Shown here: piece by piece, positions 56,384 through 60,370 of the stretch
Numbering within the stretch: position 1 is the first letter of the stretch
How the letters are laid out: each line of letters begins with the position of its first letter
From: Phycisphaerae bacterium
GTDB taxonomy: Bacteria > Planctomycetota > Phycisphaerae > UBA1845 > UTPLA1
Assembly: GCA_023150615.1 (NCBI GenBank)
Contig: JAKLKO010000023.1
Coordinates: 1-64,000 of the forward strand
Length of the DNA: 64,000 bases
Reading direction: 5' to 3'
Translations under genes and position numbers: made by a program
The notes under the pieces: generated by a model
What the model was told of the DNA's origin: nothing
Seen by the model: only the letters and a program-made list of their open reading frames with translations
Databases searched by the model: none

Positions 56384-56884
56384 ATGGCCACGCAACGAAA
56401 ACCGGGTCCGCGGACGGCCGCGAAGATCCGACCGACGCCCAAGCCGAAGGTCGAAGAGAAACCGGTCGTAAAGAAACCCAAAGAGACGGCCACGGATCGC
56501 GAGTGGATGAACTCGATCCGCGAAGCCCTGCTTCAACGCCGTGCGGCGATCACCTCCGTCGTCAAGTCGAACCGTAATCAGCTCGCCGACAATCAGGGCG
56601 AATCGGCCGACATCGCCGACCGCGCATCGGATGGTTTCGAAGACGAACTCGCGGCGGGCCTGCTCTCAATTGAGACCGCGCAGCTCGAAGAGATCAACGC
56701 AGCGCTCGAACGGATCGACAAGGGCGCGTACGGCGTGTGCGTCAATTGTCAGAAGCCGATTCCGCGCAAGCGACTGGAAGTGCTTCCGTTCGCGAAGCGC
56801 TGTCTGAAGTGCGAGGGCATGAAGGAGCAGGCCGCGCGGATGGCCCCGCCGTCGACCGACGAGGACGAGTCCGAGCTCGACTGA
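56384..56884 (+). CDS. TraR/DksA-family C4 zinc-finger protein
   Basis: This 166-aa protein starts with a Lys/Pro-rich tail (about 1-38), then a coiled-coil region (MNSIREALLQRRAAITSVVK, FEDELAAGLLSIETAQLEEINAALERID). The zinc finger is Cys119, Cys122, Cys140 and Cys143 (GVCVNCQKPI, RCLKCE), with the RLEVLPFAKRC spacing typical of DksA/YocK relatives. DksA-type proteins bind RNA polymerase in the secondary channel and alter rRNA and stress transcription. The basic N-terminal tail is unusual. A strong intrinsic terminator follows. Confidence 0.88.
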   Translation: MATQRKPGPRTAAKIRPTPKPKVEEKPVVKKPKETATDREWMNSIREALLQRRAAITSVVKSNRNQLADNQGESADIADRASDGFEDELAAGLLSIETAQLEEINAALERIDKGAYGVCVNCQKPIPRKRLEVLPFAKRCLKCEGMKEQAARMAPPSTDEDESELD

Positions 56885-57062: not shown

Positions 57063-57091
57063 TTGACGTCCGCTCGCGATCCGAATAACCT
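57063..57091 (+). promoter_or_regulatory. Candidate promoter of the small membrane protein and heme oxygenase genes
   Basis: TTGACG (57063-57068) and TAACCT (57086-57091) are separated by exactly 17 nt. The expected transcription start falls at about 57098, inside the Fur-type palindrome, so binding there would block initiation. Confidence 0.5.
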
Positions 57092-57097
57092 CCGTGA

Positions 57098-57118
57098 AAT
57101 TGAGACTCAGTCTCAATT
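57098..57118. promoter_or_regulatory. Perfect 21-bp palindrome, Fur-box-like operator
   Basis: Arms AATTGAGACT and AGTCTCAATT are perfectly complementary around a central C. The core TGAGACT-C-AGTCTCA fits the 7-1-7 architecture of Fur boxes (consensus TGATAAT-n-ATTATCA). It lies 54 nt before a small membrane protein gene and upstream of heme oxygenase, a classic iron-regulated enzyme. Confidence 0.75.
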
Positions 57119-57171
57119 AGACGCCGGCGACTCCTGGAGCCGCGCGGCACCGCTGACGCTGAGGTTTCAAC

Positions 57172-57396
57172 GTGCACGAGTCCGTGCCATCCCGACTAGA
57201 CACCAGTTCGCGGCCGCCCGATTCGTACGGCCCCGACGCCGCGCCGGAGTCGAAGGTCGATGCGCCGGGGGGCGCGCGCCCGATTCGCGGCTGGCTGAGA
57301 CGGGTCGGCGCGGTCGGGTTCCTGTTCTTTCTGGTGAAGGGACTGGCATGGCTGGCCGTTCCGCTCATCCTCGCGGAGAGCTGTACCGCCGGCTGA
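57172..57396 (+). CDS. Small single-helix membrane protein, 74 aa
   Basis: This protein has about 40 polar N-terminal residues and then one membrane helix (VGAVGFLFFLVKGLAWLAVPLIL), ending ESCTAG. A Lys inside the helix (FLVKGLAW) is notable. No family was recognised. It is the first gene after the Fur-type operator and 98 nt before heme oxygenase, so an iron- or heme-linked membrane role is inferred from context only. Confidence 0.6.
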   Translation: MHESVPSRLDTSSRPPDSYGPDAAPESKVDAPGGARPIRGWLRRVGAVGFLFFLVKGLAWLAVPLILAESCTAG

Positions 57397-57494
57397 GTGA
57401 ACGACCGGTCGCCGTTCGTGCAGAAACGCGGAATACCGGACGCGGCGCCGTTCGAGGCGGCCCTCGAATGACGCCGCATGACGTGGAGGAAGCA

Positions 57495-58139
57495 ATGTCG
57501 AGCGACACGCGATCGATCATGCAGTGCCTGAAGGAGGAGACGCAGACTCTCCATACCGAGGCGGAGCGACAGCCGTTCCAGCAAGCGCTGCTCGCCGGGA
57601 CGCTGCCGCGCGACACGTACGCCGATTCGCTCGAGCAGTTGTACCTCGTTCACCGCACGCTCGAGGCCGCGCTGCGGCGCCATGCCCCGACCGTGCCGGC
57701 GATTGCGGCCGTCGTTCGCGAATATCAGTTTCAGGAGATCGCGCTGCGGTCCGATCTCGCGTGCTTCGGTCGTGCGGTGGAGCCCGTCGAGGCCCTGCCG
57801 CCGGTCCGCGCGTTCCTCGATGAGATCGAAGCGACATCGGCGTCCAACCCGGTCGCGCTGCTCGGCTATCACTACGTCCTTGAGGGCAGCAAGAACGGAC
57901 TGAAGTTCCTCGCCGATCGTGTGCGAAAGGCCTACCAGTTGGACGGCGCGGGGACGGCGTACCTCGATCCGTACGGATCCGAGATGCGCAGCCGCTGGGC
58001 ACAGTTCCGCCAGGACATGGACGCCGTGGGCTTTGCTCCGGACGAATCGAGGCGGATCATCCGCGCCGCGTGCTCGGCCTTTGAGCACCTGACGGCGATG
58101 TACCGCACCCTCGGCGCGGGCGTGGCGGTCGCGTCGTAA
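57495..58139 (+). CDS. Biliverdin-producing heme oxygenase
   Basis: This 214-aa enzyme opens heme to biliverdin, CO and iron. The proximal heme ligand is His20 in KEETQTLHTEAER. The distal helix region reads YHYVLEGSKNGLKFLADRVRK, corresponding to the GSxxGG kink of heme oxygenases, and the QFRQDMDAVG segment and C-terminal AFEHLTAMY helix fit the family. GGAGG lies 7 nt before the ATG at 57495. The upstream Fur-type operator suggests induction under iron starvation to release iron from heme. Confidence 0.9.
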   Translation: MSSDTRSIMQCLKEETQTLHTEAERQPFQQALLAGTLPRDTYADSLEQLYLVHRTLEAALRRHAPTVPAIAAVVREYQFQEIALRSDLACFGRAVEPVEALPPVRAFLDEIEATSASNPVALLGYHYVLEGSKNGLKFLADRVRKAYQLDGAGTAYLDPYGSEMRSRWAQFRQDMDAVGFAPDESRRIIRAACSAFEHLTAMYRTLGAGVAVAS

Positions 58140-58270: not shown

Positions 58271-60370
58271 ATGTTTCGCACGGATGTTCAGCGACCGCTC
58301 GTCGTCGGGCGGGGTCTTCGCGTCACCGCGTGCCTGCTCCTGCTCGCGCTGCTGCCGGCCGGCGGGATGCTGTGCGGCAGTCCGTTCAACGTTCCGGTCG
58401 CCACCGATCCGACCGTCGCGGCATTGCTGGCGCCCGCGCCGCGCCTTCCGATGGGGTTTTACGACTACTTCGGCACGCTGAAGACGCCCGCCGAAGCGCG
58501 GCAACTGGTGATCGACGCGGGGCTGGATTCGTCGGTGCCGTCGAACTTCGAGCGGATCGGACTCGTGCTCATCGACGAGGCGCTGGTCCGCGAAGGACGC
58601 GATCACTTCTTCCGCGGCTTCCTCGGCGACCCGTTCACGCAGAACCACATCCTCGGACTGGCCCCGTTCGGCCGCACGGTGTTCGAGCTGGCGCTCGATT
58701 CCTTCAATCCCCTCGCCGATCCGAACGGCGTCGTCTCGTTCTTCCGCGACGCGATCATGACCGCGCTCCTGCGGCCGAAGCTCGCGACCACGAACTTCCA
58801 GGTGCTGCTCACACGCCCGCTGCGAATCGGGTCGAAGGAGTTCCCGGCCGGAACGATCATCGACACCGGCGCGGACGTCGCGGCGGGCGAGGCGGTCCCC
58901 GTCGGGTTCGAGAACGGCAACGTCAGTTGCGCGGTCTGTCACGCCGCGGTCGATCCGATGACCGGGCAGGTCGTGCCGGGCGCGCCGAATCTCGATCTGA
59001 ACCTCGGCCTGATCATTGCGCTGTCGACGAACAGCGCCGGCGTGTTCCTCAAGCTCGACCAAACCGCGCTCGATCCGCTCGATCCGAAGTACCCGCCGAC
59101 CGGCCGGCTCATCCTCGACAGCAAAGACAATCTGGTGCGCCTGCCCGATCCCGTCGCGTACGAGCGCTCGGTGGATGACTACCTGCTGACGATTCCGCGC
59201 GGCGGCTTCGACGCCGGTCCCGATGGCGCCACGTCGCTGACGAAGACGCCGGACTCGTTCGTCTTTGGCGAGGGCGGCATGGCGTGGGACGGCGGTTTTC
59301 GAATCGGCCCGTTCGCCGGCGTCGCGGCGTTCTCGAACGCCGTGCACTCCTTCGAGGTCAACCTGCTGAGTCCGTTCCGGTTCAGCGACATCACCGCCGG
59401 CGTCGATCCGGAAGTCTATCTCGGCGTCGTGCTGCAGAATGCGTCCGACCCGTCGATCCGCATCCCGGACGGCGTCAAGCCGTCGCAGTGGCTCGCGCAA
59501 CAGGCCCCCGGTGCGGAGCGAGATCGACTGCTTGAACTGTCGAGCTTTCCGAGCGCCACGCTGTTCTCCCTCAACAGCCTCGTGTTCAGCGAACCGGGCA
59601 AGAAGTTCATGCGCACCGTCAACGCGGCGGCTGCGTTCCAATCGAGCTTGGCCGTGCCGCCGAACCGCACACCGGAGAATCAGGCCGCGCTCGCCAGCGG
59701 CGCCGTCATCCGCGGCGCAGAGGTCTTTCTCGCCGCCGGGTGCAACGGTTGCCATCCGCCGCCGTTCTTCACCAACGGCCAGATCGTGTCGAACGACGTC
59801 ATTAAGGCGAACCCGGTCCGCGGAAAGGCGCGGCTCGCCGTCGGGCCGTTCCTGGTCGAGAGCGTCATCCCGAGCTTCGATCAGATGGTGCCGCTGCCGC
59901 CGATCCCGAATCAACTTACGATCCCGCCCGATCCGCTGACCGGCAGCAACCTCGTGCTGCCGCCCGGCCTCGATACGCCCGCGGGTGGATATAAGGTCAC
60001 CGGCCTGCTCGGCACGTACCTGAAGGCGCCGTACCTGCACGACGGCGGCGTGGCCGTCGGGCCCGACGCGCTCCAGATCAACCCCGACGGTAGCTTCCAG
60101 ATCGTGAATCTCGATGCGGTCGGCGTGGCCGGAACTCTGCGGCGGAATGGTCCGGTCAGCGCGGCAAACTCGCTCCGAGCGCTGCTCGATCGCGACCTGC
60201 GCGAGGCGGTCGTGACGCTGAACGGCTTCGATCCGAACCTCACGTCGCTTGGCATCGAGGGTAAAGGGCACGAGTTCTGGGTCGACCCGGGCGCGGGATT
60301 CACCTATCAGCAGCAGTCCGACCTGATCCGCTTCCTGCTCGCCCTGGATGACAACCCGGGCGCGTTCTGA
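58271..60370 (+). CDS. Exported di-heme cytochrome c-like protein
   Basis: This 699-aa protein has an N-terminal signal (TACLLLLALLPAGG) and two c-type heme sites, CAVCH at 220-224 and CNGCH at 491-495. The region GYKVTGLLGTYLKAPYLHDGGVAVG matches the C-terminal block of di-heme peroxidase/MauG-like cytochromes (GLxxxxPYxHDG). The distance between the hemes (about 270 residues) is greater than in bacterial cytochrome c peroxidases, so it may be a fused or enlarged relative. GGAGG precedes the ATG at 58271. The redox partner is unknown. Confidence 0.82.
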   Translation: MFRTDVQRPLVVGRGLRVTACLLLLALLPAGGMLCGSPFNVPVATDPTVAALLAPAPRLPMGFYDYFGTLKTPAEARQLVIDAGLDSSVPSNFERIGLVLIDEALVREGRDHFFRGFLGDPFTQNHILGLAPFGRTVFELALDSFNPLADPNGVVSFFRDAIMTALLRPKLATTNFQVLLTRPLRIGSKEFPAGTIIDTGADVAAGEAVPVGFENGNVSCAVCHAAVDPMTGQVVPGAPNLDLNLGLIIALSTNSAGVFLKLDQTALDPLDPKYPPTGRLILDSKDNLVRLPDPVAYERSVDDYLLTIPRGGFDAGPDGATSLTKTPDSFVFGEGGMAWDGGFRIGPFAGVAAFSNAVHSFEVNLLSPFRFSDITAGVDPEVYLGVVLQNASDPSIRIPDGVKPSQWLAQQAPGAERDRLLELSSFPSATLFSLNSLVFSEPGKKFMRTVNAAAAFQSSLAVPPNRTPENQAALASGAVIRGAEVFLAAGCNGCHPPPFFTNGQIVSNDVIKANPVRGKARLAVGPFLVESVIPSFDQMVPLPPIPNQLTIPPDPLTGSNLVLPPGLDTPAGGYKVTGLLGTYLKAPYLHDGGVAVGPDALQINPDGSFQIVNLDAVGVAGTLRRNGPVSAANSLRALLDRDLREAVVTLNGFDPNLTSLGIEGKGHEFWVDPGAGFTYQQQSDLIRFLLALDDNPGAF

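Follow-up and report, generated by a model that had tools for sequence, protein, structure and literature searches.

The locus is best read as a Fur-repressed two-gene iron-scavenging operon in which a small protein would act as a membrane accessory of heme degradation; we give this reading a probability of roughly 0.7. The operon lies in a window of 64 000 nucleotides (the whole stretch of DNA that was analysed), on contig C15 of a 4.1-Mb genome, and its features are collected in Table 1. Those relatives that carry names are Phycisphaerae or Phycisphaerales, and the host probably belongs to this planctomycete class. The parts of the reading differ in strength. That the heme-oxygenase operon is of Fur type and repressed by iron is very likely, as judged from a box that recurs at iron genes of the genome and of its planctomycete class, and a heme-related role of the small protein is favoured more cautiously from its neighbours in several phyla.

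Table 1. Predicted features of the heme-oxygenase operon (window coordinates)
Feature	Position	Strand	Remarks
Terminator-like stem-loop	56963..56986	+	10 GC pairs, T-rich tail; after the upstream gene
-35 element (predicted)	57063-57068	+	TTGACG; TTGA/TTGC element in most of 26 aligned regions
-10 element (predicted)	57086-57091	+	TAACCT; 17 bp from -35, 8 nt before the 17-bp box core
Fur-type operator (predicted)	57098-57118	.	AATTGAGACTCAGTCTCAATT, perfect palindrome; core 57100-57116
Small membrane protein, 74 aa	57172..57396	+	GTG to TGA; GAGG 7 nt upstream of start
Heme oxygenase, 214 aa	57495..58139	+	ATG to TAA, GGAGG upstream; PF01126 E=3e-26

The small membrane protein and its neighbours

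The 74-aa membrane protein called in the original prediction is a real gene, as judged from 30 homologues and from coding constraint. Codon-position entropies of 0.68/0.40/1.24 place the variation in the third position, and the residues FF-x2-K-G-x2-W are invariant in 30/30 aligned homologues. The N-terminus is Pro/Ser-rich and is followed by one hydrophobic helix (about residues 45-68). Searches of Pfam, NCBIfam and the PDB returned no match to the protein, and a literature search of partial coverage returned no description of such a microprotein; it belongs to a family with an FF-K-G-W core and without a Pfam or NCBIfam match. The predicted structure of the core of a homologue is a single helix (pLDDT 94) and gives no information on function.

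Homologues were found in 31 of 298 genomes of the class by protein search and in 36 by profile. Heme oxygenase was found in 68 of the 298, and 35 genomes have both. Co-conservation, proposed earlier as a check, is therefore strong: 35 of the 36 carriers have a heme oxygenase (Fisher p=2e-25, a value that ignores the kinship of genomes), and in 32 of the 36 the small protein lies, by coordinates, directly 5' of it on the same strand. The converse is looser, with 33 of the 68 heme-oxygenase genomes having no detectable small protein. At one locus (L062, reverse strand, around 1480-1580) a remnant comprising only the KGLLWL half of the small protein lies between the box and the heme oxygenase, which appears to be gene loss in progress. 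An in-frame fusion of the two proteins was considered for L062 and rejected, as the remnant is truncated and its first half is missing.

In another planctomycete class, 13/13 small-protein loci adjoin a heme oxygenase of a different, more canonical subfamily (PF01126 E=3e-75 for one of these enzymes). At least 365 relatives of the small protein came up when named genomes were scanned, and the best 80 were kept. Among these are Planctomycetota, Acidobacteriota, Bacteroidota, Ignavibacteria/Chlorobiota, Proteobacteria and Myxococcota-type names; because selection was by similarity to the planctomycete sequences, counts within the sample are not population frequencies. PF01126 is encoded nearby in seven of the best 80 of at least 365, all seven in Planctomycetota. 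An ABM-family protein is encoded just upstream of the small protein in nine of the best 80 (Ignavibacteria, Chlorobiota, Bacteroidota and others), and the best NCBIfam matches of these proteins, which fall short of the equivalog cut-offs, are HmuQ and IsdG/IsdI-type heme-degrading enzymes. The ABM fold is unrelated to that of PF01126 and the gene order is reversed: the enzyme comes first and the small protein second, whereas in the planctomycete class the small protein is 5'. At four Thiobacillus-type loci the small protein is followed downstream by a ferredoxin-reductase-like protein; in one of the four this protein was read as a ferredoxin-reductase-globin fusion, with a weak metal-chelating-domain match before it. 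The remaining loci of the best 80 of at least 365 share no common neighbour. Beyond Planctomycetota, neither enzyme adjoins the small protein at most loci (PF01126 is present in 8/25 and absent from 17/25 of the genomes of such loci), and in Bacteroidota and Acidobacteriota the small protein is usually solitary.

Palindromes were also sought 5' of the small protein in other phyla, and no common box emerged; three loci were the exceptions. The IsdG-type loci L083 and L092 carry similar palindromes, TTATTT..ACTAA.TCTAAATAA, and L110 carries AATGAAAATGATGTTCATTTTCATT. Upstream of the IsdG-like gene in L083, L092 and L110, the palindromes TTATTTATACTAAGTCTAAATAA, TTATTTGGACTAAATCTAAATAA and AATGAAAATGATGTTCATTTTCATT resemble Fur boxes of other phyla, suggesting that IsdG-small protein pairs may also be under iron control.

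The occurrence of the small protein beside heme-degrading enzymes of two unrelated folds points to heme. Since it stands alone in many genomes of other phyla, it is a recurrent rather than an obligate partner; the earlier proposal of a new oxygenase partner gains strong support from co-conservation and adjacency in the class. A rather unlikely but serious alternative sees in the small protein a general protein of the membrane or envelope, induced by iron shortage and unrelated to heme, that shares only the iron regulon with heme oxygenase. Its solitary state in Bacteroidota and Acidobacteriota, where many genomes lack PF01126, would suit such a role, as would two loci of the class (L017 and L023) at which it stands alone behind its own iron box with the heme oxygenase elsewhere in the genome. 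Shared regulation alone, however, hardly explains adjacency to two unrelated heme-degrading families in distant phyla, and the reductase-globin fusion near the small protein in Thiobacillus-type loci is again heme-linked. On the evidence of these neighbourhoods a heme-related accessory role is the reading towards which we lean. A bolder extension, which we offer only tentatively, is that the FF-K-G-W microprotein might be a multi-phylum accessory subunit of heme catabolism, independently recruited beside PF01126 and IsdG-type enzymes, which uses its intramembrane Lys and Trp to pass heme or electrons out of the membrane and on to the enzyme.

The predicted operator, the promoter and the probable regulator

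Besides the predicted operator of Table 1, the window holds no other odd palindrome of 21 bp. Since 0.21 such palindromes are expected by chance, the symmetry by itself is not significant; its significance comes from recurrence in the genome and the class, and the decisive evidence thus lies outside the window. The perfect palindrome of 7-1-7 architecture described in the original prediction was recovered intact. It splits as TGAGACT-C-AGTCTCA, the odd-centred inverted repeat of a Fur box, and its 17-bp core is TTGAGACTnAGTCTCAA, which was not found in print by a literature search of partial coverage. Like the 7-1-7 Fur box model (TGATAATnATTATCA), it has heptamers inverted around one base, stands at a transcription start (predicted here) and occurs before feo genes; the half-site of the model is TGATAAT, compared with TGAGACT here.

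The TTGACG-17-TAACCT promoter is likewise present as had been described, and its layout is conserved across the box loci. It is weak (8/12 against the consensus), and a consensus promoter scan found nothing at the locus because the -10 element is poor. When 26 upstream regions were aligned on the box, a TTGAC or TTGC element was seen in most of them about 29-43 nt before the box and a TAnnnT element ended a few bases 5' of it, giving the spacing pattern TTGAC-16/18-TAnnnT. The mean best promoter score of these regions was 8.5/12 compared with 6.5 in shuffles, and a score of at least 9/12 was reached by 54% of the regions and by 1.7% of the shuffles. With a conserved promoter just upstream, the box coincides with the predicted start of transcription, where a repressor would be expected to bind. 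The upstream gene (56384-56884) is DksA/TraR-like, with a DksA-type zinc finger, and the strong terminator-like hairpin behind it sets the predicted operon apart.

With up to one mismatch the core occurs at only three sites in the genome: here, at C8:29194 and at C7:77107. The C8 box lies directly 5' of feoA-feoA-feoB (FeoA, E=7e-13 and 2e-19; FeoB, E=2e-57). The C7 site (C7:77107-77129; L003 1501-1523) consists of two overlapping boxes, TTGAGACTGAGTCTCAGTATCAA, and precedes a secreted CbiX-domain protein; farther along in the same direction are a CusB-type membrane-fusion gene and a large ORF assigned as RND-type by eye only. Why a Cus-like efflux system should lie behind an iron box is unexplained. 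Relaxing the Fur pattern to two mismatches added sites at background level (nine, compared with seven in the control), and these were discarded.

A survey of the class found the box (up to one mismatch) in 59/198 genomes, compared with one hit for the reversed-pattern control. Neighbouring genes were read at 30 of the class box sites, with Pfam run on a chosen subset, and included FeoB (3), FeoA (3), an FTR1 iron permease, a periplasmic binding protein and SufB. Further neighbours without an obvious link to iron are a Rex-type regulator, a sigma factor and secreted proteins that carry a DUF6662 or a dockerin domain. At some loci the heme oxygenase stands immediately behind the box and the small protein is absent. 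Within 400 bp upstream of the core of the small-protein gene, a box with up to three mismatches was present at 17/30 loci, where 0.01 would be expected. A good box is absent from 12-13 of the 30, mainly in other families of the class, so regulation differs there.

Two kinds of exported protein were observed around these sites. One kind, secreted and marked by the motif DRWxYPFNxTPGxR and an end that resembles a dockerin, is encoded at L203:1710-2789 (+) and L205:1652-2734 (+), and L074 and L086 have similar ORFs upstream of their small protein; in Phycisphaerales these proteins are seen behind an iron box or beside the small-protein/heme-oxygenase pair, and an extracellular iron or heme protein is possible. 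DUF6662-type exported proteins with an EYEQWVTW motif stand directly behind an iron box at L201:1588-2421 and L208:709-1482 and, in similar form, at L219:628-1491; they are candidates for an outer-membrane iron protein.

A single Fur-family gene was found in the genome (C10:24760-25116; PF01475 E=1e-29). Its product carries the segment HDHMVCxxCG, and the best-matching relatives of solved structure are Fur proteins (E=1e-28); its NCBIfam matches all fall far below the cut-offs, with iron Fur models ranking first. The original prediction had been staked on copies of the box near iron genes and on a Fur homologue. Both were sought and found, so that iron-type control of the heme-oxygenase operon is well supported and, as far as sequence can tell, highly probable; the predicted iron repression of heme degradation gains accordingly from the box at feoAAB and the Fur gene. 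We infer that Fur would be the protein that binds the box and iron the signal. Another iron or redox regulator, of the Rrf2/RirA or DtxR type, seems an improbable substitute. In each half, TGAGACT departs from the classical Fur heptamer at two positions out of seven, and the TGA-N9-TCA pattern also fits the RirA iron box. Against such a regulator stand the 7-1-7 symmetry, which suits Fur, and the Fur gene of this genome; the choice of regulator draws on known distribution.

The heme oxygenase and its genomic context

The gene that the original prediction took for a heme oxygenase is one by profile (92.9 bits with PF01126, compared with a curated cut-off of 23) and by its best solved relatives, which are heme oxygenases. 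The proximal histidine is H20 in TLHTEAER, which aligns with VHTQAE of human HO-1, and is kept in the clade. The distal-helix motif, LEGSKNG, is also conserved in the clade. The GDxSGG motif with Asp140 is typical of HO-1 and is not known to be required of all bacterial members; it is not present here, where GDLSGG of human HO-1 corresponds to GSKNG (GSxNG in 26/27 loci examined) and the distal Asp is replaced by Ser. The chemistry may therefore differ from that of textbook HO-1, and the missing motif would lower only the claim of HO-1-like chemistry.

That the enzyme makes biliverdin as a pigment rather than releasing iron is a reading we hold very improbable. Its LEGSxNG motif may resemble that of bacteriophytochrome-linked oxygenases. 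The genome, however, has no phytochrome (PHY) domain that would need biliverdin, and the operon stands behind an iron-type box; iron release fits the heme oxygenase better than pigment supply. Least credible of all, and refuted by the 30 constrained homologues with their invariant residues and third-position variation and by the class-wide box at iron genes, is the notion that the 74-aa ORF is non-coding and the palindrome a chance repeat, even though such a palindrome is expected 0.2 times in a window of this composition.

No match to a TonB-dependent receptor was found in the genome, and its one confident FecCD permease has no box, so classical outer-membrane heme uptake is not evident from the gene content. 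The suggestion that the small protein serves heme uptake found no support for the same reasons.

A large protein with CxxCH heme-c motifs is encoded 131 bp after the heme oxygenase (window 58271-60370, +); its match to a di-heme peroxidase (PF06537, E=0.001) is weak and below the cut-off. In a relative (L065) the heme oxygenase is followed by an unrelated ORF on the opposite strand.

Proposed mechanism and comparison with known systems

With ample iron, metal-bound Fur would sit on the palindrome at the transcription start and block the promoter. As iron falls Fur would leave, and the small membrane protein and heme oxygenase would be made together; the latter would open heme and release iron when iron is short. 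The small protein would be a single-helix inner-membrane accessory, most likely acting with the heme-degrading enzyme at the membrane, where it may dock the enzyme, hand over heme or electrons, or handle the product. The manner of its action we infer throughout.

Fur-regulated heme oxygenase operons of the HemO/PigA, HmuO and IsdG/IsdI types are alike in that an iron-repressor box lies at the promoter of a gene for heme degradation, and the enzyme here is likewise of family PF01126. The present operon differs in having no heme receptor or transporter and in the added microprotein. HemP/HmuP are also small iron-controlled proteins beside heme genes. HemP is not known to have a membrane helix, whereas the small protein here has one and has no Pfam hit of any kind. 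HemP has been named a regulator of hemin acquisition (PMC11002078).

For a class of Planctomycetota that is large and little studied, the analysis provides a sequence-level iron box and a first target list. A concrete candidate partner is also offered for the heme-degrading enzymes of bacteria, many of which have no known electron donor or membrane connection. This microprotein is short enough for gene callers to miss and is without a Pfam or NCBIfam model, yet it has at least 365 relatives.
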